Positions 16,014 through 27,195 of a DNA stretch of 64,000 nt are shown here, one piece after another. The DNA comes from Lutibacter sp. (lineage in GTDB: Bacteria; Bacteroidota; Bacteroidia; Flavobacteriales; Flavobacteriaceae), in the NCBI GenBank assembly GCA_002733665.1, contig NVWM01000029.1:21809-85808 (forward strand). Reading direction: 5' to 3'. Each line of letters begins with the position of its first letter. Position 1 is the stretch's first letter. The position numbers and the translations under genes are program-made. The notes beneath the pieces were generated by a model. The model made no database searches. It was given only the letters and a program-made list of their open reading frames with translations, and was not told where the DNA came from.

Positions 16014-16889
16014 TTATGCAGGTAAAAAACCCATTTTTCCCATTTGATAATCTCTCATTGCTTCCATAATCTCTGTTTGTGTGTTCATCACATATGGGCC
16101 ATATTGCTTAATCGGCTCATTAATCGGTTCTCCTGACAAAATCAATAAAGTGCTTTCTGCCCTTGCTTCAAATTCTATCATATTACCATCGTGATTAAAA
16201 GTAACCATCTGAACTGCTCCATTTTTAAGACTTACTTCATCATTCACAACAACATCACCATCTAATAAATAAATTAAAGATTCATGTATTGTTGGGATTT
16301 CAACTTCCATTGTACCAGTTTGCTGTGTTTTTACTGTAAATACATTAACAGGAGTTTGTGTTTTAATCAAACCCTTTTTATTGGATTGCTCTCCTGCAAC
16401 AACTTTTAAAATAATCGTTTTCGCATCATTTTCAATTACAGGCATATCTTCACTTTTTATATGTTGATAATTTGCTGGCATCATTTTATTCTTTGCAGGT
16501 AAGTTTAACCATAACTGTATTCCCTCTAACTCACCACCTTTTTGGACAAATTCTTTTGTTGGACCTTCGGCATGAATTATCCCCAAGCCAGCAGTTGTCC
16601 ATTGTACATCTCCTGCTTTTACAATACTTTCATTTCCTAAAGAATCTCTATGTAATTGTTCTCCTTTAAAAAGTAATGTTATCGGCTCAAACCCTCTGTG
16701 TGGATGTGGTCCTAAATCAAACGGATTATTAGATTCACTAATCGAATAAGGACCATAATGGTGCAATAATATAAATGGATCTACATTCTCAATTCCATGC
16801 GAAGGTATTGGTTGGCGTAAGCGTATTGACCCCATATTTACCATAGGACTTCCTGTTTTATGTTGTATTGTTTTTAATATTTTTTTCAT
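16014..16889 (-). CDS. Pirin family protein
   Basis: 291 residues, two cupin domains. The N-terminal domain has the metal-binding set of pirins: HPHRGFEPITLLFKGE (two His), DSLGN, and TAGLGIIHAEGP (His and Glu). The second domain (ESLIYLLDGDVVV) lacks such a set, as is usual. Bacterial pirins bind a single metal ion, and some act as quercetin dioxygenases or redox sensors. It is the last gene of an operon with DoxX-like, FMN-reductase and MarR genes, 7 bases after marR, which points to quinone or oxidative stress handling. Confidence 0.9.
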   Translation of the reverse strand: MKKILKTIQHKTGSPMVNMGSIRLRQPIPSHGIENVDPFILLHHYGPYSISESNNPFDLGPHPHRGFEPITLLFKGEQLHRDSLGNESIVKAGDVQWTTAGLGIIHAEGPTKEFVQKGGELEGIQLWLNLPAKNKMMPANYQHIKSEDMPVIENDAKTIILKVVAGEQSNKKGLIKTQTPVNVFTVKTQQTGTMEVEIPTIHESLIYLLDGDVVVNDEVSLKNGAVQMVTFNHDGNMIEFEARAESTLLILSGEPINEPIKQYGPYVMNTQTEIMEAMRDYQMGKMGFLPA

Positions 16890-16896
16890 ATTTTTT

Positions 16897-17334
16897 TTAT
16901 CTAATTTTATCTAACAAATCACTTAAAACAAGTGCTTCTTTATTAGATAGATTGTTTAAAAAATCAATATTAGAGGAACTATCAATAGTGTCCAAAAGTT
17001 CCAATCCTTGTTTTGAAATAGTAATAAATACTACTCTTCTATCCTCATTACATCGTGCTCTTTCTATCAATTTCTTATCACATAATTTATCCATCAATCG
17101 TGTAGCATTAGGAGCACGATCTATCATTCTTTCTTTTACCGTTTGCGCTTTCATTGGCTCTTTAGAACCTCTTAGAATTCGTAAAATATTATATTGCTGT
17201 GGAGATATTCCGAAAGGCTTAAAAAATTCTATTTCGTGACTATTTAACCAATTTGCTGTATATTTAATATTGATTAAAGCCTTAACCTTATTACTTGAAA
17301 ACTTAGATTTTATATCTTTTGAAATATCACCCAT
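16897..17334 (-). CDS. MarR family transcriptional regulator
   Basis: 145 residues with the MarR winged-helix layout: an N-terminal dimerisation helix (KALINIKYTANWLNSHEIEF), ISPQQYNILRILRGSKEPM, recognition helix RAPNATRLMDKLCDKKLIERARC, and the wing EDRRVVFITISKQGLELL with the conserved D-R-R. A C-terminal helix completes the dimer interface. A cysteine (ARCNED) lies just before the wing, a possible redox or ligand-sensing residue, though this is inference. It is encoded 2 bases after the FMN reductase and is likely to control its own operon through the palindrome at 18354-18369. Confidence 0.9.
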   Translation of the reverse strand: MGDISKDIKSKFSSNKVKALINIKYTANWLNSHEIEFFKPFGISPQQYNILRILRGSKEPMKAQTVKERMIDRAPNATRLMDKLCDKKLIERARCNEDRRVVFITISKQGLELLDTIDSSSNIDFLNNLSNKEALVLSDLLDKIR

Positions 17335-17336
17335 AA

Positions 17337-17867
17337 CTACAACTTCTCTTTAAGATTTAGAACACATTCATCAATGTTTGCTTTAATTTCTTTATTACTA
17401 ATTTTTCCATCATTAAAATTGTCATAAAAACTAGGAACAGAAATCGAGCTCACAATATTTCCACCTAAATGTGGAAATGTGTTTTTTGCAGTTTCTAATA
17501 CTGATGCTCCTCCTCGACCTCCTGGAGAAGTGCTCATCAATAACATGGGTTTATTTGCCCAAACATCTTTGTCAATTCTTGACATCCAATCAAAAATATT
17601 TTTAAAAACTGATGCATAACTTCCATTGTGTTCTGCTAAAGACAATACAATACCATCTGATGTTTGAATTAAATTCAAAAAGTCCTGTGCCTTTTCAGGA
17701 ATACCAACTTTATTTTCATGATCTATCCCGTAAATTGGTAATTCAAAATCATTTAAATCTAATATCGTTACTTCAACATCTTTAAGTAAACCAGAAGTAT
17801 ATACTGCTAACTGTTTATTTATTGAAATTTTACTATTGCTTCCTGCAAATGCTATTACATTTTTCAT
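17337..17867 (-). CDS. NADPH-dependent FMN reductase family protein
   Basis: I place the start at ATG 17867 (MKNVIAFAGSNSKISIN); an upstream in-frame ATG at 17897 adds ten non-conserved residues. The 176-residue flavodoxin-fold protein has the FMN phosphate loop AFAGSNSKISINKQL, the segment DGIVLSLAEHNGSYASVFKNI (usual xxPEYNGS block with AEHNGS here) and STSPGGRGGASVLETA. These enzymes reduce FMN, quinones or azo compounds with NAD(P)H in the cytoplasm. It is the second gene of the four-gene redox operon. Confidence 0.88.
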   Translation of the reverse strand: MKNVIAFAGSNSKISINKQLAVYTSGLLKDVEVTILDLNDFELPIYGIDHENKVGIPEKAQDFLNLIQTSDGIVLSLAEHNGSYASVFKNIFDWMSRIDKDVWANKPMLLMSTSPGGRGGASVLETAKNTFPHLGGNIVSSISVPSFYDNFNDGKISNKEIKANIDECVLNLKEKL

Positions 17868-17956
17868 GTGTTTATATTTATTGTTTTTAATTGTCACATG
17901 TGTTCGCTAATAATAATTCCATTAGGAATAATATTTTCAACATGCTCGGTTCATAA

Positions 17957-18307
17957 TTAAATCTTTTTACTGAAAATATAAGAAACAACTAATAGTATCA
18001 TTGCTATTAATGCTCCCATTTGTTCTCCATCTCCTATCATAACATGTGCAAAGAATGCAAGTATAAATGCAAAAAAGAATCCTGCATATGCCCATTCCTT
18101 CAAGACTTTGTTTCCAACAAACCAAAGAGTAAAAATTCCTAAAATCTTTGCTATTGCATACGGATAAATGATATAAGTTGGATATCCAAAATTGGTAAAC
18201 ATTCCTGCTACATCTTCATGATTAAATAAATACATTTTTACTGAAAACATCATTAACAATGTTAATAATCCAGTTGCTACATAAAAAATAATTTTGTTTC
18301 GTTTCAT
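17957..18307 (-). CDS. DoxX-like family membrane protein
   Basis: 116 residues with four membrane helices: an N-terminal one (IIFYVATGLLTLLMMFSVKM), a YPYAIAKILGIFTLWFVG segment, AYAGFFFAFILAFFAHVMIGDG, and a last helix ending in SKKI. The pattern GYPTYIIYPYAIAKILG and the H-x-x-x-GD segment are typical of DoxX-like proteins. Members are often found with oxidoreductases and MarR or LysR regulators; the molecular activity is unknown. It is the first gene of the redox operon. Confidence 0.8.
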   Translation of the reverse strand: MKRNKIIFYVATGLLTLLMMFSVKMYLFNHEDVAGMFTNFGYPTYIIYPYAIAKILGIFTLWFVGNKVLKEWAYAGFFFAFILAFFAHVMIGDGEQMGALIAMILLVVSYIFSKKI

Positions 18308-18413: not shown

Positions 18414-20102
18414 TTAGTGGTTTGCTTTTATCGAATCGATTTGTTGCTGCAATTTTTTAATTTCTTTGATATCCTTTTCAACTATAGAAATTAATTGAAT
18501 GGAGTCTATCTCTTGTTGCTTATTTTCTAAAATTATTTTTTCATCTTTAAAAAATTCATTTGAATTCTCACTTGATTTCCATGCTTCACTTAGTTGCTCA
18601 TAGACTGTTAAGTCCCATTTGCTAGGATGCTTAGCATCAATCCAAATTACATCACGATATTCACTATCTATCAATGCTAAATCTGGTGTTGCTGAACCAT
18701 CAAAAGTATTAGAGTCTTCTCTAATTGCAGAAATAGTTCCTAAAAACAACATACGTCTTCGTCCAGCAATATCTTTAATATAAGGTCTAAATTCTACAGG
18801 TTTATTTACTGACCAATCATATTCTTTACGCGATTCAATAACTTTTAATGGCATTGCCGAAACACCTGCATATCCTTCTTTTTTTGAGGCATGATCATAA
18901 TAATAAAGTTCATCTGTGCCATCTGCAGGAATAAAAACACTGTATGTCAAACTTGTTCGTTCATCTCCTATTGGTTCTAACCCAAACCAATGATACAAAC
19001 CACTATATGCATTAAATTCTGAATCTGAAAAATCAAAATCAGTTACAAAAGGCTGTGGATTTTGATCGTCTTCTAAATCTGGAATTTTTACTGCAGTTTT
19101 CATATTCCACGGCAAAGGATCTTTAAATCCGCCAATAAACTTTAATGATTCTGCTTGTAATCTTGACACCTTTTCAGACAATGTATTCTGTTTTGTGAGG
19201 TATGGATAGTTCTTCATTTCATCAGGAGAAATATAGGTTCCTTTACCAATAAAAATTCGTTCTACATAATCATTAAAATCATGTTCACCATTATCAACCA
19301 CCATTACACCTCCAAAAGTTGGATATGGAAATAAAAAGCCTTTCCACTTTATTAAACTTACAACTTGAACCCATTCATTAGCATCGTTTTTCATATAAAA
19401 CGTATCGCTTGGTTCCATCGTAAGCAATTGGAAAATATTAAACCGTTGAACTACTGCATTGTATGTGTTTCGGCTAAATTTTAATGATTCACCAATAGAA
19501 AATGTTACTGAAATTCGATTTTCACTTGAAAATCTTGGAAAAGGCGTTGTACTTGAAACAGAGAAAATTTCTTCAGTATTATCACTTATTCGCTGCCAAA
19601 CATACTTTTCTGTCGGCTGAATTGCCATAGTCCATTTGTTGACACTATCAATTCTAACTAAATGTGGTAAAGACACATCTTTTGTTTCACCAACACTCTC
19701 ATTAGCCATTGAAAAAATGTTTCTTAAAGGCTGAATTCGTTCATTTTGAGTTAGTGGTAACTTATTAATTTCTATACGATTTAGATTTTTGAAAACATTG
19801 TATGTTCTCATGTAATCATACATTTTATAATATCCTCCAACTACATATAGAATTCCAAAAAAAGCAGTTAAGCCTATCAATATTAAGATACGTTTTCCTG
19901 TACTTGCAGATTTCCTAAACTTATATAATCCAAAAAAGAGCACAATTAAACTCAATAGAATTATAAAAACATATTTTCTAACAAACAATAATGCTGGTTG
20001 ATAATCATCTCTCATTATGAATAGCATAACCAATAATATTATAGCAAGAATGATAGTAATTACCTTCTGCTTTCCTCCTTTGTTCCAGTATCTTTTAATC
20101 AT
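18414..20102 (-). CDS. Large membrane-anchored protein of the AAA gene cluster, unknown
   Basis: 562 residues; I do not recognise the family. Three membrane helices lie at about residues 14-29, 42-61 and 71-92. Basic residues before the first and between the second and third (KFRKSASTGKR) put the N-terminus inside and the remaining 470 residues in the periplasm. The soluble part is beta-rich with many aromatics (GLYHWFGLEPIGDERTSL; GRRRMLFLGTISAI) and ends in a short coiled coil (EIKKLQQQIDSIK). It is the last gene of the minus-strand cluster that starts at 27195, with 9 bases to the gene upstream. A sensor or envelope-facing scaffold is possible, but no activity can be assigned. Confidence 0.75.
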   Translation of the reverse strand: MIKRYWNKGGKQKVITIILAIILLVMLFIMRDDYQPALLFVRKYVFIILLSLIVLFFGLYKFRKSASTGKRILILIGLTAFFGILYVVGGYYKMYDYMRTYNVFKNLNRIEINKLPLTQNERIQPLRNIFSMANESVGETKDVSLPHLVRIDSVNKWTMAIQPTEKYVWQRISDNTEEIFSVSSTTPFPRFSSENRISVTFSIGESLKFSRNTYNAVVQRFNIFQLLTMEPSDTFYMKNDANEWVQVVSLIKWKGFLFPYPTFGGVMVVDNGEHDFNDYVERIFIGKGTYISPDEMKNYPYLTKQNTLSEKVSRLQAESLKFIGGFKDPLPWNMKTAVKIPDLEDDQNPQPFVTDFDFSDSEFNAYSGLYHWFGLEPIGDERTSLTYSVFIPADGTDELYYYDHASKKEGYAGVSAMPLKVIESRKEYDWSVNKPVEFRPYIKDIAGRRRMLFLGTISAIREDSNTFDGSATPDLALIDSEYRDVIWIDAKHPSKWDLTVYEQLSEAWKSSENSNEFFKDEKIILENKQQEIDSIQLISIVEKDIKEIKKLQQQIDSIKANH

Positions 20103-20111
20103 AACAATATT

Positions 20112-20447
20112 TTAATATTCATACTCATCATATAAATAAAATTTATTTTCTTTATTCTTTTTAAAGTGATATAAAATTAAACTTTCTTTTTTTTTATATA
20201 ATGAATCTCCAACAATTATCCTCTTCGGATTATTATCAAAAGAAAAATGCAACAAGTTTATAAATTTTTCATTTTTAAATTTTACTCTAGGATTTTCATG
20301 ACCATCATAATCTAATTCTGTGATTATACCGCTAAATCCCATATTCTTAGCCTGTTTTTTTGAAAGGTCATTTAAGAATAAAACGATAATAAGAAAAAAA
20401 CCAAAAAATCCTATTACTCTTAATAATATTTTATTTTTTATTTTCAT
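20112..20447 (-). CDS. Small single-helix membrane protein of the AAA gene cluster
   Basis: 111 residues, not recognised. One N-terminal membrane helix (VIGFFGFFLIIVLFLNDL) is preceded by lysines, so the roughly 80-residue domain behind it is probably periplasmic. That domain has alternating polar and hydrophobic residues (GFSGIITELDYDGHENPRVKF; LHFSFDNNPKRIIVGDSLYK), which suggests a small beta-barrel. It lies 4 bases from the gene upstream and 9 from the one downstream, so it is clearly part of the operon. AT content is even higher than in its neighbours. Confidence 0.65.
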   Translation of the reverse strand: MKIKNKILLRVIGFFGFFLIIVLFLNDLSKKQAKNMGFSGIITELDYDGHENPRVKFKNEKFINLLHFSFDNNPKRIIVGDSLYKKKESLILYHFKKNKENKFYLYDEYEY

Positions 20448-20451
20448 ATTA

Positions 20452-20976
20452 CTACAATAATCCTTTATCTTTTAGACGTTCACGAGCACTTTTTTCTTCT
20501 TTTATTATATTTTCTTTCTTCTCGACTGCGCTCGAAGTGACTGTATTGTCATTTTTATGCTGTAAATCTTCTATGAAATCTTTTCCTTTTTCTATCGTAT
20601 CGTGCACCAAATCTTCTAAAGAGTCTGACTTTTCATCAATCACTTCGCTAGATTTAAAGATCATTCCTGCAATATAAGTTCCTACTAAAGTTCCTACAAT
20701 CATTGAAGCGAAAATTGAAATTGTTGCTAAACTTATTGGAATTAAAAATTGTGTTACGACAATAGCAACTAAAAATAATGCCGAAATAAAAACCAAACGC
20801 AATAAAAATGATTGTTGATATACAAAACCTTTCTTATCAAAAGGTTTCATTTGCAATTCTTTAGAATTCATTAATTTATTAAAAAAACGATACACTCCAT
20901 TTCCGCTCGATTCTCTCCAATACAATATAATACCAAATAATACTGCCGCAATAAATATGATAAGTTCTAGTGTCAT
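20452..20976 (-). CDS. Membrane protein of the AAA gene cluster, contains an in-frame dispersed repeat
   Basis: 174 residues, not recognised. Three hydrophobic segments are visible: residues 2-18 (LELIIFIAAVLFGIILYW), about 56-77 (FLLRLVFISALFLVAIVVTQF) and about 81-107 (ISLATISIFASMIVGTLVGTYIAG). A hydrophilic C-terminal tail of about 65 residues is rich in Lys and Glu and ends RLKDKGLL. Part of the tail (NTVTSSAVEKKEN) is encoded by a copy of the dispersed repeat (20519-20541), so this segment is recent or dispensable. It lies 19 bases after the 411-residue gene in the same operon. Confidence 0.7.
   Translation of the reverse strand: MTLELIIFIAAVLFGIILYWRESSGNGVYRFFNKLMNSKELQMKPFDKKGFVYQQSFLLRLVFISALFLVAIVVTQFLIPISLATISIFASMIVGTLVGTYIAGMIFKSSEVIDEKSDSLEDLVHDTIEKGKDFIEDLQHKNDNTVTSSAVEKKENIIKEEKSARERLKDKGLL
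20519..20541. repeat. Dispersed repeat inside a coding sequence
   Basis: CTCGACTGCGCTCGAAGTGAC at 20521-20541 is a half copy of the arms seen at 735-750 and 38478-38493. It is translated in frame in the C-terminal tail of the membrane protein. Confidence 0.7.
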
Positions 20977-20995
20977 CTTTTTTGTTTAAAATTAG

Positions 20996-22231
20996 TTAAA
21001 TATTATTAGAAATCGTCTCAATTACCCAATCTTTCATTGAGTCATTCCAAGTTTTGTACCGTTTATAAAACTCTTCTTTATCATACCAATACAAAAACAA
21101 AACATCTTTTGGAGATACGTTTATCAATAACTTCCATATCAAATCTTGATGATTTGGCTTCAATGATGAATGTGGACTATGCAAAGCAAAGTATATCTGC
21201 TCGTCAATTATATCTTCAATTTTATATTGGCTATTTATTTTTAACTTTTCTAAATAGAGTTCTACACTCATCACTTTTTTCCGATCTTCAAGTGTGATTT
21301 TATTCAAATAGCTTTTGAACAAAACTGAATCATTTAAAATATCTTTTACAGGATGTTTAGGATCGTCTAAATATTCAGAAAATAAATATTTTTTAACTCT
21401 TTGATATTTTTTTGATGTTATTTCTTCTTGTATATCACAATCTATAACCTGATAACTTTTTAGTTTTTCTACTAATTCTGAATGGGAAATATGATACATC
21501 AAGACATCATGAATAGTATCTTTAATTGCAGACTTATATGTTTCTTCATCTTCAAAAATTAAAATTGGAGAAACAAAATCACGCAATAAATAAATACCAC
21601 CAAAGGCTTCTGTATAAAAGGAATCTGTTGCGAAATGAATATCACTCAATTCTAAATCTCTATTTCTTAAATCTCCATGTTTTTTTGCTGATGCTATTAA
21701 TTTCTCATGCAGCGTTTCGTCAATAAAATTATTATCTCGATTAAAAGTTCCTATCAGTTGTAACTGCTCCTCTTTTGCTTTACCTAAATTATCAATTAGA
21801 TGAAATCGAACTATAATATCTTTATACCTCAGCACGTCTAAAGACTCATAAAAAACATCAATTTTTTGGTCAAAATCAATACAAATTGCTGAATCGCGTG
21901 TTATATTTCTAATTCTATCTCCGTGTATTTTAAAGACTTCCTTCATCACATCTTTATCAAAAGAATGAAAAGGCATATATATTGGTGCATCTTTTTGCAA
22001 CGGAGTAATAATTATACAATGAGAATTTGCTTCACCATTGTTTAAATAATGTCTTTTGTTTTTCTCTTCTGATATTTCTGGACTCCAACCAATACCATCA
22101 ATAGAAAATGATGTCAATTTTGTTTCTGTAAAACCTAATTTCAACAGGCATTTATTATAACGCTCAACAAGCTTTCCGCTAATTGGAATTAGTTCACTCC
22201 TATATAGATTGGCCTCTTTTAGTTTTTGCAT
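20996..22231 (-). CDS. Unrecognised cytoplasmic protein of the AAA gene cluster
   Basis: 411 residues with no signal peptide or membrane segment. I do not recognise it with confidence. The N-terminal half is mixed alpha/beta (GFTETKLTSFSIDGIGWSPE; HCIIITPLQKDAPIYMPFHSFD, where the H-S-F-D segment looks conserved in character), and the C-terminal half is mainly helical with many charged residues, ending in a Trp- and Tyr-rich stretch (LFLYWYDKEEFYKRYKTWND). It follows the AAA ATPase gene after 89 bases that hold a hairpin repeat, so translation or transcript level may step down here. A substrate adaptor for the ATPase is one guess from context only. Confidence 0.7.
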   Translation of the reverse strand: MQKLKEANLYRSELIPISGKLVERYNKCLLKLGFTETKLTSFSIDGIGWSPEISEEKNKRHYLNNGEANSHCIIITPLQKDAPIYMPFHSFDKDVMKEVFKIHGDRIRNITRDSAICIDFDQKIDVFYESLDVLRYKDIIVRFHLIDNLGKAKEEQLQLIGTFNRDNNFIDETLHEKLIASAKKHGDLRNRDLELSDIHFATDSFYTEAFGGIYLLRDFVSPILIFEDEETYKSAIKDTIHDVLMYHISHSELVEKLKSYQVIDCDIQEEITSKKYQRVKKYLFSEYLDDPKHPVKDILNDSVLFKSYLNKITLEDRKKVMSVELYLEKLKINSQYKIEDIIDEQIYFALHSPHSSLKPNHQDLIWKLLINVSPKDVLFLYWYDKEEFYKRYKTWNDSMKDWVIETISNNI

Positions 22232-22234
22232 ATT

Positions 22235-22311
22235 ATTGCCGCGAAAGCGGTAATCTTATTATTGTTATATGAGATTCCTCGTCATTCGTTCCTCATTCTG
22301 TCGGAATGACA
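22235..22311. repeat. Hairpin plus dispersed repeat between AAA and 411-residue genes
   Basis: A tight hairpin ATTGCCGC-GAAA-GCGGTAAT (22235-22254, one wobble pair, GNRA-like loop) is followed by GAGATTCCTCG...TCGGAATGACA (22271-22311), a degenerate copy of the dispersed family. The block fills most of the 89-base spacer and may attenuate or stabilise the operon transcript. Confidence 0.65.
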
Positions 22312-22320
22312 AATCATTAA

Positions 22321-24282
22321 TTAATCTAATTTCCCAAACTGTTCTCTCGCCTCTAAATCAATATTCAATTGATTCACTCTTGAATCTACTTTTCGTTTAA
22401 AGTCAGTATCTGCAATAGTTGCTACATTGTCTAAATAACGAACAACTTCTTGTCTTCTAATCTCAGAAAAATCTAATCCTTTCATATTTCCTTTCATCAA
22501 TTCTTGAAGCATATCAAACTTAGTCTGATACTTCTGCTTAAAATATATTTCTGGATTCTCAAACCAATTTTTTTCTAAATCAAAATCCGTTAAACGCAGC
22601 GAAATTGCTGATTGAATATTACGAACATCTCGTGAAGAGAAAAACGGAAATATCTTCTGAATCTCTTTATACAAACCTGCATAAAATAAATGCTCACTTG
22701 TCTTATGTAATTTTTCAGCTCTTTCATACGCTTCAAAAACTCGCTCTTCATTTGGCTTTTCGATACTATTTAAAATTTCTCCCATACTTTTTGCCAGTCC
22801 TTGATCTTTTAAAAATTTGTAATCCGAAGGGTTTGCCATATTCACAAAATCTGGCATTGTTTTGTCCAACTTATTCCACCATAAATAATCTTGATCTAAA
22901 AAATCGTGTTCTGTTCTTGCTCCATCAATCTTAAAACGACCTTGAACTCTAGAAATCACTGCTTTATCAAGCATTTCTGGAAGATTGGTAAATAACCCTA
23001 TCGAACTGTTACCATAATTTACAGCGTAAGCACCTTCAGTATATCTTAAAAACACACCAATAACTTCTTTCACTCCAGCCGAAACACCTTGTGCAGTTCG
23101 CTCTTGCAAATTATTTTCAGCATCATCAATTGGTGCAAAAATTAAACGCGTTGGATCTTGCATTGGCTTCATCCATTCCACCATTTTTTCGGCAGAACCT
23201 CCTTGAAAAGTGCTTATCAAAGTATCTGGCATTGGATGAAATAAAAACGGAATATCTAAATTATCCGAATGTTCTTTTAACCGTGTTGCAATGGCTGCAA
23301 TTAACATACTTTTTCCTGTTCCTGGAATTCCATAACCCATAAAAACTGGCATAAATCCTCCTAATTCTTGAAACGGATTTTTCTTTTCTTCGAAATCATA
23401 ACTCAACATTCGCTCTGTCAATCTACGTGCAAAATGCTTCGCATCTTTATTTCCAACTATTTGTTCGAATTGAATTTTATTAAACTCGATACTCTTTGCA
23501 GTTCCAGAAAAAACATTGTTCCAGCCATCAACAGCAAAATCTGAATTTTCAAGTTTATACGTTCTATCTTCAATTGTTTCAGTATACTCTAATGCGCTTT
23601 TTCGAAGTTGAATTTCGTCAATCAATGCTTCAAAATAAACAACTGTAAAATCAATAACATCTTTGTCTGACTTGATAATTTCTGGATGTCCTAAATATTT
23701 ATCAAAATAAAATAAGCAACAAGAAATTCCTTTTAAAGGTGATAACAATGAAACTTCTGGAATTCCTGCAAATTTTTGTTTCATCACACTTAAATCATCC
23801 GAAGCATGTGGTTTTAAATCATGCAAAATCTTATACGCTGTTGAAAACAACATAAACGCAGTTGCAGTGTGCATCTTACTTTCATACTCGCGTTTTCCTG
23901 ATGTATCTAAAGCAGATTTATTCTCATTGAGTGTTGATAAACCAGACGCATCGTAATAATTATCCTTAATCCATATTCCTAAAGTAATCCCTTCTTGAAC
24001 TGCATACAATGTTTCGTTTAAAAATTTTGGAATGGCAATAGAATCTGGTAATAAGCGTTTTTTTAATGATAGAATAGTTTTAGAAACTGATGTTACTGTA
24101 GTATTACTCCCGTTATTTGCTCTTGACAAATACAATAAAATAGATTCGTCCTTAGCATCTTTATCTTTATTCTTTGCGCGTTGTCCTTGTTCCCATTGTA
24201 CACTTTTTAAATATGATGAGGCCTCATCTCGAAGCATATCAAGTTCATTTTGTTTTATTGGAAATGTTGAATTGTGTTCCAT
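22321..24282 (-). CDS. AAA family ATPase with a divergent Walker B
   Basis: 653 residues, cytoplasmic. The N-terminal 300 residues are helical and unrecognised. The AAA domain (about 300-460) has Walker A GYGIPGTGKS (Lys324), a pore-loop-1-like STFQGGSAEKM (residues 357-367, compare the GESEK motif of katanin/Vps4-type AAA proteins), Walker B LIFAPIDDAEN (380-390), and FTNLPEMLDKAVISRVQGRF (431-450), where Asn433 fits sensor 1 and Arg445/Arg449 fit the arginine-finger region. The residue at the catalytic Glu position is Asp387, which may slow hydrolysis. The C-terminal 190 residues are helical. It is the central gene of the cluster and likely remodels or unfolds a partner protein. Confidence 0.85.
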   Translation of the reverse strand: MEHNSTFPIKQNELDMLRDEASSYLKSVQWEQGQRAKNKDKDAKDESILLYLSRANNGSNTTVTSVSKTILSLKKRLLPDSIAIPKFLNETLYAVQEGITLGIWIKDNYYDASGLSTLNENKSALDTSGKREYESKMHTATAFMLFSTAYKILHDLKPHASDDLSVMKQKFAGIPEVSLLSPLKGISCCLFYFDKYLGHPEIIKSDKDVIDFTVVYFEALIDEIQLRKSALEYTETIEDRTYKLENSDFAVDGWNNVFSGTAKSIEFNKIQFEQIVGNKDAKHFARRLTERMLSYDFEEKKNPFQELGGFMPVFMGYGIPGTGKSMLIAAIATRLKEHSDNLDIPFLFHPMPDTLISTFQGGSAEKMVEWMKPMQDPTRLIFAPIDDAENNLQERTAQGVSAGVKEVIGVFLRYTEGAYAVNYGNSSIGLFTNLPEMLDKAVISRVQGRFKIDGARTEHDFLDQDYLWWNKLDKTMPDFVNMANPSDYKFLKDQGLAKSMGEILNSIEKPNEERVFEAYERAEKLHKTSEHLFYAGLYKEIQKIFPFFSSRDVRNIQSAISLRLTDFDLEKNWFENPEIYFKQKYQTKFDMLQELMKGNMKGLDFSEIRRQEVVRYLDNVATIADTDFKRKVDSRVNQLNIDLEAREQFGKLD

Positions 24283-24284
24283 AT

Positions 24285-24319
24285 TTTTAGTTGGCAGTAT
24301 TTAGTCTGCAGTTAGCAGT
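24285..24319. repeat. Array of five 7-bp repeats (NNNNAGT)
   Basis: The plus strand reads TTTTAGT, TGGCAGT, ATTTAGT, CTGCAGT, TAGCAGT in exact 7-base register, starting 3 bases from the AAA start codon. Only the AGT triplet and some flanking bases are kept. Two similar arrays occur at 24710-24730 and 25765-25799. Confidence 0.7.
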
Positions 24320-24334
24320 CAGAAAACACTATGT

Positions 24335-24694
24335 TTATTTAAATTTATTTGGGTTATTCACCATGTAATTAATGAGCTTTCCAATTTCTTCACTTTTATG
24401 TTGCAATTCTGTTCTCTTTTCTTCAGATATGTATTCACATGAAAAAGCAAAATCTAACCAAAGTTGAGTTTCAGAATTTTCACTATCTGCATCAGATAAT
24501 TTACTTTTAAAATGCTTTTCATATTCTCTTTTTCTATAACCTTCTGCAATATTTGAACAGACAGACCTACTAGACCTAACAATTTGTGACGTTAAACTAA
24601 AAAGTTCTGTCTTTGGAAAAGTCTTAGTGATGGTGAAAATCTCCATCGACAATTCAAAACCTTTTTTATATGCTAATAATGTTTTAAAACTCAT
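24335..24694 (-). CDS. Four-helix-bundle protein (23S rRNA intervening-sequence protein family)
   Basis: 119 residues fitting the four-helix-bundle/IVP family: an N-terminal LLAYKKGFELSMEIFTITK, then FPKTELFSLTSQIVRSSRSV with the conserved Q-I-x-R-S-S-x-S-V, CSNIAEGYRKR, then LSDADSENSETQLWLDFAF. These small basic proteins were first seen in ORFs within intervening sequences of 23S rRNA genes, and relatives serve as Avd in diversity-generating retroelements; I see no reverse transcriptase here. The gene interrupts the AAA cluster between the 353-residue gene and the ATPase, and 7-bp repeat arrays lie on both sides in opposite orientation, so it looks like an insertion. Confidence 0.88.
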   Translation of the reverse strand: MSFKTLLAYKKGFELSMEIFTITKTFPKTELFSLTSQIVRSSRSVCSNIAEGYRKREYEKHFKSKLSDADSENSETQLWLDFAFSCEYISEEKRTELQHKSEEIGKLINYMVNNPNKFK

Positions 24695-24704
24695 TCCACT
24701 AAAT

Positions 24705-25766
24705 TTATAACTGCTTACTGCCTACTGAAGACTTTAAATTACTTATTTGAAAAGGTGGTTTTGCCAATTCATCTAAAATTTCAGGTGTTTTATTGTGTAA
24801 TAATTGTATGATTCTGTGAGGTGCAAAAACATATTTTTGATTAAATACATCATTCCATTTTTGAAATACTTGTTTGGTAAAAAAACCTCCTTCTTTAAAT
24901 TCTTCTCCAGATTCTACTTCATCAATCTTTAAAGAAATCGCATACGATTCTAACGGAATTTCTTTTTTGCTAATCCCTTCTAAAATAGCGTGCGTAATAT
25001 CATTTTCATCTTTTGCAAATACATTATGTATAGGTCCTAAATCAATACGCTTTATCAATTTAGGCGACACTTTAGGTAAACGCCTGTCTATCGTATAAGC
25101 CATTGTATCTAAAGACATTTCTCTATCTGAAGTTGTTTTAAGCACTTCGTAAATTTCATCTTTATAATCATTTATTCGATTGCCATCATAATTAAAATAC
25201 ATAAAGCAGATAAATGGTCGATTGTGCGAAACATCATAAAAACTCCAGCTAATGAGTAAATCTCCTTTCGAATTTTTTGGTGCAATTATTATTTTCCCTT
25301 GTACAAATCGATTAAAAATATATCTTTGATTTACCGATCTATAATACACGATAGATGCTGCTTGAAACAACCTGTTTTTTTTGATTGGTACTTTTTTGCG
25401 AAGCAACGTATCTAAAAATTCTTCTTTTAATTCATCTTCATCTGTTAGTTTGCCTAAATATTCTTTACGAAGTTCTAGATCGTTGTATAGATACCTGAAT
25501 TCTAAATAATTAGGAAATCCAGAGTCTGTCAAATCAATCTTCATATTCTCTTCATCATCATACATGTACTTCACGCGCATTGCTTCGATTGAATAAAGCA
25601 ACAAATCACAATATTGCTTAAAGAAAATCACTTCTTCCTTATTGCACAATTGCTGTCGCTGAACATTTACAATCAATTCTTTGAGTGCAAAATCTACCAT
25701 TCTATGATAAAATATATATTGCTCTTTCGAATTAAGAAGTGCAGAATCTAAAGGTGTTACTATCAT
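24705..25766 (-). CDS. Unrecognised cytoplasmic protein of the AAA gene cluster
   Basis: 353 residues, no signal peptide or membrane helix. I do not recognise a family. The N-terminal 150 residues are helical and acidic (VDFALKELIVNVQRQQL; DDEENMKIDLTDSGF), the middle holds beta segments (GDLLISWSFYDVSHNRPFICFMYFNYDG), and a later part GFFTKQVFQKWNDVFNQKYVFAPHRIIQLLHN is probably helical. The last residues (SSVGSKQL) are encoded by a 7-bp repeat array (24710-24730), so the original C-terminus may have been altered when the neighbouring four-helix-bundle gene inserted. It lies 88 bases after the coiled-coil gene. Confidence 0.7.
   Translation of the reverse strand: MIVTPLDSALLNSKEQYIFYHRMVDFALKELIVNVQRQQLCNKEEVIFFKQYCDLLLYSIEAMRVKYMYDDEENMKIDLTDSGFPNYLEFRYLYNDLELRKEYLGKLTDEDELKEEFLDTLLRKKVPIKKNRLFQAASIVYYRSVNQRYIFNRFVQGKIIIAPKNSKGDLLISWSFYDVSHNRPFICFMYFNYDGNRINDYKDEIYEVLKTTSDREMSLDTMAYTIDRRLPKVSPKLIKRIDLGPIHNVFAKDENDITHAILEGISKKEIPLESYAISLKIDEVESGEEFKEGGFFTKQVFQKWNDVFNQKYVFAPHRIIQLLHNKTPEILDELAKPPFQISNLKSSVGSKQL
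24710..24730. repeat. Array of 7-bp repeats, inverted relative to the other two
   Basis: The plus strand reads ACTGCTT, ACTGCCT, ACTGAAG in 7-base register, opposite in orientation to the arrays at 24285 and 25765. It overlaps the last codons of the 353-residue gene. Confidence 0.65.
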
Positions 25767-25799
25767 TTAGTTATCAGTTCTCAGTCATCAGTATACAGT
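25765..25799. repeat. Array of five 7-bp repeats (NNNNAGT)
   Basis: The plus strand reads ATTTAGT, TATCAGT, TCTCAGT, CATCAGT, ATACAGT without a break. It begins at the start codon of the 353-residue gene, so it forms that gene's 5' leader in the minus-strand transcript. Confidence 0.7.
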
Positions 25800-25854
25800 C
25801 TATACTAATAACATAGAAATATGAATATTTATAATTTTTACTTGTGTAGTCTTT

Positions 25855-27195
25855 TTAACCTAACAAATCATCATCAGAATCATCTAGAGTTGTATCATTT
25901 GATGGTTCATCTCCTCCAGAAGGTGCATTAGCATCAGCACTATAATAATCTTCGAAAATTTCTTTCATATCGATACCATAGCGATCGGAAAAATTCTTTT
26001 GAATCTCTTTATCTTTTGTACGAATTTCTTGTAATGCTTCTGCATAACTACCATAAACACCTTGCATAACTTTTTCGTGTACTGGAATATTGTCCATCAT
26101 TGCCTGACGCGCTTTGGCACTTGCTGTATGCATAGATGCTAACGTTTCTCCAATATGCTCATCAGTTTTTACACCAAGATGCTCTAAAATAGCAGCAAAT
26201 TCTTGATCTGTTCTTGCTTTAAGCGCTACAACATAACCATCATAATATTTCAAACGTTCTTCAGTATCACTCTTCAGTTTTGCACGATGTGTCTGTAAAT
26301 TACTACGCAATGAAGTCAACACCTTAATTGTAAGATTATGCTTGTGTACAAAACTATCTTTACTTGCAGCCAATGTTGTATAAGCATTTTTAAGCCCTTC
26401 AAGTTCTTCTACTTTTTGTTCAATAGTTGTTACTTTAGACAACGCTTCAGAGTATGCAGCTGATTGTTTATCAGACACTTCTTCTAACGCTTGGCGTGCT
26501 TGTTTTAACAACGCGTATTGTTCTTCTAATTTATCTTCTGTTTCTTTCTTTCTCTCTAATGCTTTGGTATGATTTTTAGAAGCTTCTACAATAGCGTCTT
26601 TTAACTTTTCTTCTACTTCTTTAATCTCTACTTCTCTGTTTTTTAGTCGTGTAACTGCTGCTTGAGATTTGTAAGAAAGTTCGCTTAAAAGTGTTTGAAC
26701 ATCAGCACTTTCAATTCTTTCTTGGAACATTGCTTTTGCCTTATTATCTGCTCCTGCTCTTGTTTTTTGACTCTCTTCTAACTCAACTTGTGATTTTTTA
26801 ATTTTGCTTTTTCTTCCCCAAAGGTTGTTCCACCAAGTATCTGGCTTATTCTCTGCATCTTCCAATTTTATTCTTGCACGTTCCAATTCTTTCTGTGCAT
26901 CATCAATAACTTTTTGCTCTTTTGGATTAAGTGAAGAGAATTTTTCAAAAATAATTCCAACTTCATCTTGATAATCAGTTAAGTCCTTTATAGCATCTAA
27001 CAGTGAAGTCCTGTCTTTTTCTGCCATATCTACAACATTATCTAATGTTGCATTTAATATTTTTTGTCGCGATTGCGGATCGTCTTCTTTAGCAAGTCGA
27101 GACTTCATAGTATCGATTGCTTTTCCCCAATTCACATCAACTTTTTCAGTTTTCTCGTTAGAACTTGTTTCTAATAAATCAAAATCATCAGACAT
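25855..27195 (-). CDS. Long coiled-coil protein, first gene of the AAA gene cluster
   Basis: 446 residues, cytoplasmic, mostly coiled coil from about residue 85 to 300 (KVIDDAQKELERARIKLEDA; EEKLKDAIVEASKNHTKALE), preceded by a helical head with a Trp-rich hinge (DTWWNNLWGRKSK). After the coil comes a helical segment (LTIKVLTSLRSNLQTHRAKL), then an acidic disordered tail (DDSDDDLLG). The shape recalls TelA (toxic anion resistance) or PspA-type proteins, but I see no decisive motif. As first gene of the operon it may be the most abundant product and the assembly platform for the ATPase. Function unknown. Confidence 0.8.
   Translation of the reverse strand: MSDDFDLLETSSNEKTEKVDVNWGKAIDTMKSRLAKEDDPQSRQKILNATLDNVVDMAEKDRTSLLDAIKDLTDYQDEVGIIFEKFSSLNPKEQKVIDDAQKELERARIKLEDAENKPDTWWNNLWGRKSKIKKSQVELEESQKTRAGADNKAKAMFQERIESADVQTLLSELSYKSQAAVTRLKNREVEIKEVEEKLKDAIVEASKNHTKALERKKETEDKLEEQYALLKQARQALEEVSDKQSAAYSEALSKVTTIEQKVEELEGLKNAYTTLAASKDSFVHKHNLTIKVLTSLRSNLQTHRAKLKSDTEERLKYYDGYVVALKARTDQEFAAILEHLGVKTDEHIGETLASMHTASAKARQAMMDNIPVHEKVMQGVYGSYAEALQEIRTKDKEIQKNFSDRYGIDMKEIFEDYYSADANAPSGGDEPSNDTTLDDSDDDLLG

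Follow-up and report, generated by a model that had tools for sequence, protein, structure and literature searches.

A conserved six-gene unit built on a variant AAA ATPase and a coiled-coil protein in Lutibacter and its relatives, with a four-gene core shared with Proteobacteria

A row of eight open reading frames (ORFs) lies on the minus strand at positions 18414-27195 of the 64,000-nucleotide stretch of a Lutibacter sp. genome analysed here (the window), and raises the question of which of these genes belong together and what they could do together. Comparison of gene order and co-occurrence across genomes shows that six of the eight form a conserved unit, which encodes a coiled-coil protein (CC), protein B, an AAA ATPase, a DUF6638 protein (E) and the membrane proteins F and C. 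A function is known for only one part of this unit, the AAA domain, despite the fixed gene order and a core that is found across phyla. Relatives were collected by scanning the genomes of 84,980 species, each represented once, with an alignment of the ATPase; 347 were found, and the 80 loci referred to below are the best 80 of these, 78 of which are long enough to span the whole unit. The 80 kept relatives show 81-90% identity to the ATPase of the window; most of them carry names of Flavobacteriaceae or of genera in that family, and a few are named only as Bacteroidia or Bacteroidota. By coordinate, the ORFs of the window encode 562, 111, 174, 411, 653, 119, 353 and 446 amino acids, and the intergenic gaps, from the 562-residue gene to the CC gene, are 9, 4, 19, 89, 52, 10 and 88 bases. 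In the order of transcription, the genes are as follows.

25855..27195, minus strand: CC, coiled-coil protein, 446 amino acids, first gene; in 80 of 80 loci
24705..25766, minus strand: B, 353 amino acids, no known family; in 80 of 80 loci
24335..24694, minus strand: four-helix bundle of the 23S_rRNA_IVP/S23 type (Pfam), 119 amino acids, an insert; in 18 of 80 loci
22321..24282, minus strand: AAA ATPase (PF00004), 653 amino acids; in 80 of 80 loci, being the search query itself
20996..22231, minus strand: E, DUF6638 protein (Pfam), 411 amino acids; in 79 of 80 loci
20452..20976, minus strand: F, membrane protein whose C-terminal tail is charged, 174 amino acids; in 79 of 80 loci
20112..20447, minus strand: orphan ORF, 111 amino acids, one transmembrane (TM) segment; in none of 80 loci
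18414..20102, minus strand: C, 562 amino acids, three TM segments at the N-terminus and a large, putatively periplasmic domain; in 78 of 80 loci

The first-pass annotation had read this row as an eight-gene operon. The eight ORFs, their lengths, their common strand and the gaps between them stand; the unit itself comprises six genes, to which the S23-type insert and the 111-residue ORF are extras. The order CC, B, ATPase, DUF6638, F and C is kept on one strand in all 78 complete loci, where the unit spans 8.0 to 11.8 kb, and because of this constancy the arrangement reflects more than chance. The few missing genes are confined to two loci (L053 and L061), both of which end inside the operon at contig ends. 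Furthermore, in a sample of 395 evenly drawn Bacteroidota genomes, the profiles of the ATPase, DUF6638 and C found matches in the identical five genomes, and the profile of B in the same five plus one weak partial match (21.8 bits, genome G355), which was the only sign of a homologue without its neighbours. A multi-protein unit based on the AAA ATPase and the coiled-coil protein, as the annotation had proposed, is therefore strongly supported by gene order and co-occurrence. The 111-residue ORF, on the other hand, is probably an orphan outside the unit: its GC content is 0.20 against 0.31 for the window, a value that the operon as a whole shares, and it has no relative in the 80 loci or in 13 other genomes of the genus.

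The ATPase occurs in one of 14 genomes sampled from the genus (one of the six near-complete ones) and in five of the 395 genomes from the phylum. Around the unit, each of six gene families is found in 57-66 of the 80 loci, which argues for a stable place on the chromosome where the unit is present. Judged by these distributions, the unit is an accessory system with a stable chromosomal place. Patchiness would also suit a role of the AAA ATPase and the coiled-coil protein as the basis of a defence system against phages, and PADLOC gave weak AAA-level matches to IetA (E-value 6.4e-05) as well as a match of the coiled-coil protein to JetC (E-value 4.3e-05). However, these matches extend over only parts of the proteins, none of the six falls into a nuclease or protease family, the recurrence of the flanking families is unlike that of a defence island, and a search of 50,697 phage records found no relative of the ATPase, so that we consider defence very unlikely. 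IetAS was also tried as a candidate and rejected: the IetA match (20.5 bits) covers residues 317-457 only, and there is no protease family among the eight proteins, whereas IetA pairs with a protease. In general, the PADLOC and PHROGs matches to proteins other than the four-helix bundle are weak and partial.

Part of the unit is found outside the Bacteroidota. Among plasmid records, tblastn with B retrieved five (~24% identity), and tblastn with the ATPase retrieved ten, namely four Vibrio, four Sinorhizobium, one Shinella and one Rhizobium record; a S. meliloti DUF6638 query returned exactly the same ten. In all ten records, CC, B, ATPase and DUF6638 follow each other in this order and on one strand. 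The proteobacterial and flavobacterial CC proteins belong to one family (hhalign 96.7%, E-value 3.9e-10), and the S. meliloti DUF6638 partner scores 256 bits in Pfam. These comparisons show a four-gene core common to Bacteroidota, Gammaproteobacteria and Alphaproteobacteria. They bear also on the view that the genes are mere neighbours without a common function in a slowly rearranging chromosome region, which would fit the frequent conservation of the flanking genes; since the core recurs in Vibrio and Rhizobiaceae with other flanks, and the proteins are found together in one set of genomes, this view is extremely improbable. The membrane module, by contrast, was shown in these comparisons of gene order to vary: it consists of F and C in flavobacteria, and of DUF2333 in some rhizobia, where a DUF2333 gene with two predicted TM segments follows DUF6638 in five of the ten records (the four Sinorhizobium and the Shinella). 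As profile comparison reveals no kinship between DUF2333 and C, the membrane module seems to be exchangeable.

Which of the proteins can be named? The annotation had put only the ATPase and the four-helix bundle in a nameable family; this proved wrong for the 411-residue protein E, which matches DUF6638 (PF20343) with 116 bits against a cut-off of 27. Pfam found no family above its cut-off for CC, B, F, the 111-residue ORF or C. In NCBIfam, the four-helix bundle is the sole protein of the eight above a cut-off. Our literature search on DUF6638 found no paper in the collection searched. By hydropathy, CC, B, the ATPase and E have no TM segment, while C has three; F gave three overlapping TM peaks in one hydropathy scan and four windows in another. 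The structure model of B reaches a predicted local distance difference test (pLDDT) score of 88.3, and a profile of C found no relative in the PDB.

The ATPase matches PF00004 with 34.5 bits against a cut-off of 21.2, and the nearest relatives of its AAA domain in the PDB are the VCP-like, 26S Rpt, i-AAA/FtsH and Vps4 ATPases. Its N-terminal region of about 300 residues and its C-terminal region of about 200 contain no known family in Pfam, and Pfam gave no match to an MIT domain at E <= 1. Four motifs were located in the AAA domain.

23308..23331, minus strand: Walker A, GIPGTGKS; pattern shared by all 80 loci and all ten Proteobacteria
23194..23208, minus strand: pore loop, FQGGS; [FY]QG[GK]S, shared by all 80 loci and all ten Proteobacteria
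23122..23130, minus strand: Walker B, IDD; [IV]DD in 80 of 80 loci, IDD in 10 of 10 Proteobacteria
22936..22950, minus strand: candidate arginine fingers, RVQGR; pattern shared by all 80 loci and six of the ten Proteobacteria

The arginine fingers were scored with the pattern A[VL].[SQ]R..[GA]R[FW]; the four Vibrio ATPases read ALRQRAITRF at this site and keep both arginines. The pore loop, with its aromatic residue, aligns with the same region of VCP-like ATPases, and the Walker B IDD aligns with their IDE. An IDE-type Walker B was found in none of the 80 loci, an aspartate taking the position of the catalytic glutamate. By its profile match and its other motifs, the ATPase is placed as a variant of the superfamily.

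CC is the most constrained of the six proteins, with 68% near-invariant columns (81 sequences) against 63% for the ATPase. Between residues 261 and 380, the proportion is 85-100% per 20-residue block, as would be expected of an interface for assembly or for a motor. Structure prediction gave long helices at low confidence (mean pLDDT 64.8). Three short segments are of interest.

27169..27183, minus strand: FDLLE motif at the N-terminal end of CC; shared by 79 of the 80 loci, in a stretch predicted to be disordered
25858..25872, minus strand: DDLLG motif at the C-terminal end of CC; as variants in all 80 loci, preceded by a linker predicted to be disordered
26818..26835, minus strand: WWNNLW segment of CC, with a basic stretch after it; from the sequence and alignment

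The one locus without FDLLE has an ORF truncated at the N-terminus. The last five residues of CC read DDLLS, DDLLG, DDMLS, DELLS, EDLLS or DDMLG in all 80 loci, and both ends of the protein (residues 1-20 and 405-446) have pLDDT values under 50. The WWNNLW segment and the basic stretch could form a membrane-contact loop.

Taken together, these features lead us to a tentative proposal, plausible though short of probable, that the six genes build a membrane-docked AAA machine that remodels coiled-coil assemblies. The classical AAA ATPase is predicted to form a hexameric ring, which would grip the flexible acidic-dileucine tails of CC and thread or loosen CC assemblies on the cytoplasmic side of the inner membrane, so that CC is pulled out of, or into, the assembly. 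CC would thus be the substrate and would self-assemble, and B and DUF6638 may be soluble adaptors that help the ring to engage it. F and C (or DUF2333) would anchor the machine at the inner membrane, and C may dock it there and pass a signal or load to the periplasm. The aromatic pore loop would fit threading, and the aspartate at the Walker B glutamate position would fit slow, gated or otherwise regulated ATP hydrolysis. If this is true, an ATP-driven remodeller of a coiled-coil scaffold would be a second, unrelated bacterial solution to the task of ESCRT (endosomal sorting complex required for transport)/Vps4 and PspA, and the presence of the four-gene core in rhizobia would make it testable in a tractable organism.

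Several results weigh against this proposal. The patchy distribution means that the system is dispensable, and the low-confidence model of CC does not display a polymerising fold. Both DLL motifs are absent from the CC proteins of all ten Proteobacteria records, and so cannot be a universal handle for the ATPase. A BLAST search beside the core in the four Vibrio and the Rhizobium records found neither DUF2333 nor C, and membrane docking may therefore not be general; hydropathy of one Vibrio locus and the Rhizobium locus likewise found no TM gene in line with and directly adjoining the core, apart from a single crude TM window, which lies in the mfd protein. In addition, several of the ten Proteobacteria records are near-identical and represent about four lineages. 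The inner-membrane setting suggested in the first-pass annotation is accordingly plausible in flavobacteria, where two TM proteins are conserved, and for the half of the ten Proteobacteria records that have DUF2333; beside the core of the other five, no recognised membrane partner was found. The earlier interpretation as a whole was thus partly right: the comparative data bear out the unit, and the mechanism, in its version and in ours, is inferred.

A Nudix gene cluster is present in 61 of the 80 loci (in 60 of them in the gap between the ATPase and E genes, and in one behind the ATPase gene at a contig end). Two of the Nudix proteins encoded there are NudK-like, belonging to the YffH/AdpP type. 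The unit could alternatively be a cytosolic nucleotide-linked system, in which B would be a T-fold-like enzyme or binding protein activated by the ATPase, and NudK-type Nudix partners would tune the level of a nucleotide or of a nucleotide sugar. By its occurrence in the loci, the Nudix gene is a frequent but dispensable member of the operon; it is absent from the window, and one Nudix query found no match in the genome of the window. We regard a nucleotide-linked function as distinctly unlikely.

A further reading takes CC as a polymer of the PspA/Vipp1/ESCRT-III kind that coats the membrane and is recycled by a Vps4-type ATPase; a passage of PMC11237479 describes PspA/Snf7 together with AAA ATPases. 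When CC was compared with seven PspA proteins, hhalign gave 1.2%, against 96.7% for the within-family control, and there was no Pfam match; with five TelA (PF05816) proteins, it gave 0.7%, which is at noise level, again without a Pfam match. No match to PspA or TelA was found in the host genome. The analogy with PspA and TelA drawn in the annotation is thus at most one of working alike, kinship not being supported by profile comparison. We consider a polymer of the PspA/Vipp1/ESCRT-III kind unlikely. A bolder form of the proposed machine, which we hold to be doubtful, would make the unit a bacterial ESCRT counterpart of separate origin. Here an AAA clade with a fixed Walker B aspartate would drive a coiled-coil polymer unrelated to PspA/Snf7, with B and DUF6638 as universal adaptors and with exchangeable membrane modules. 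The block would have been passed between phyla, and its task would be to transmit force to the envelope or to reshape the inner membrane.

The 119-residue protein scores 110.6 bits for 23S_rRNA_IVP against a cut-off of 33.8 and has no TM segment, and from its occurrence in the loci its gene is an insert outside the conserved unit. Arrays of a degenerate heptamer, ACTGNNN, were located by pattern search; two of them, inverted relative to each other, flank the insert, and a third lies between the CC and B genes.

24289..24319, minus strand: heptamer array between the insert and the ATPase gene
24710..24733, plus strand: inverted heptamer array inside the 3' end of gene B
25769..25799, minus strand: heptamer array between the CC and B genes

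With at most one mismatch, the window contains nine matches of this pattern, compared with 0.59 expected, and eight of the nine lie within this operon; among the 137 exact matches found in 78 loci, 104 fall in the gap between the B and ATPase genes and nine outside the operon. The genome of the window has 81 exact matches, in arrays (for example G000:C8:26462-26562 and C30:23193-23321) and none of a backwards control pattern. Four further S23-type copies in this genome (L118, L119, L120 and L121) lie between protein ORFs of unrelated operons with short repeats of their own, one of the four sitting between what we take to be groES-like and groEL-like ORFs; all five S23-type genes of the genome are thus outside 23S ribosomal RNA (rRNA) and between protein ORFs, and their repeat sequences differ. 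When repeat periods of 4 to 11 were examined in the flanks of 25 S23-type copies (five from this genome and 20 from the 80 loci), the best period was 7 in 23 and 8 in two, compared with 9 and 8, respectively, of 78 control flank pairs. Complementarity between the flanks was above all 40 shuffles in 15 of the 25 copies, including all five of this genome, and not above all shuffles in the remaining ten; 3 of 78 control pairs were above all of 20 shuffles. Folding of the whole insert stretch was unremarkable (z -1.2). A passage of PMC4990558 describes the Coxiella 23S intervening sequence as a selfish element excised by RNase III, and part of PMC5524665 lists a four-helix-bundle gene of Flavobacterium columnare between guanylate kinase and adenylyltransferase genes. 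The insert looks like a relative of the 23S intervening sequence carried on messenger RNA, which may be excised at the stem.

Other genes accompany the operon. A GIY-YIG gene (100 amino acids, e.g. L100:5650-5952) is present in operon gaps of seven of the 80 loci, in six of the seven in the same two gaps as the four-helix bundle. In two loci (L098 and L099), the operon is split between the Nudix and DUF6638 genes by about 8-9 kb, which contain what we take to be two AraC-like ORFs and a CheB/CheR-like ORF of 1490-1618 amino acids. Downstream of the operon, at 16014-18307 of the window, lie DoxX-like, FMN reductase, MarR and pirin genes; each of the latter three is found close to the operon in 57-58 of the 80 loci, and the DoxX-like gene in 22.

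How, then, does the unit compare with known systems? The S23-type insert is itself a member of the S23 family, and differs from S23 elements in 23S rRNA by its place between protein genes with repeat arrays. To TelA/KlaB the likeness is that of a long helical protein without TM segment encoded in an operon; however, the profile score is at noise level, and there is no xpaC-type family among the eight genes. With the VCP/Cdc48-like, 26S Rpt, FtsH and Vps4 ATPases, the ATPase shares Walker A, the aromatic pore loop and the arginine-finger region, but it has an aspartate for the Walker B glutamate and long terminal regions without known family. ESCRT-III-Vps4 of archaea and eukaryotes and PspA/Vipp1 of bacteria resemble the unit in combining a helical scaffold with a classical AAA ATPase in a membrane setting; the differences here are a CC without sequence kinship to PspA by profile, an ATPase in which no MIT domain was found, the additional B and DUF6638 proteins, and the Walker B aspartate. 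Finally, the 411-residue protein is a member of DUF6638, a family without assigned function, which is now placed in a fixed four-gene core.

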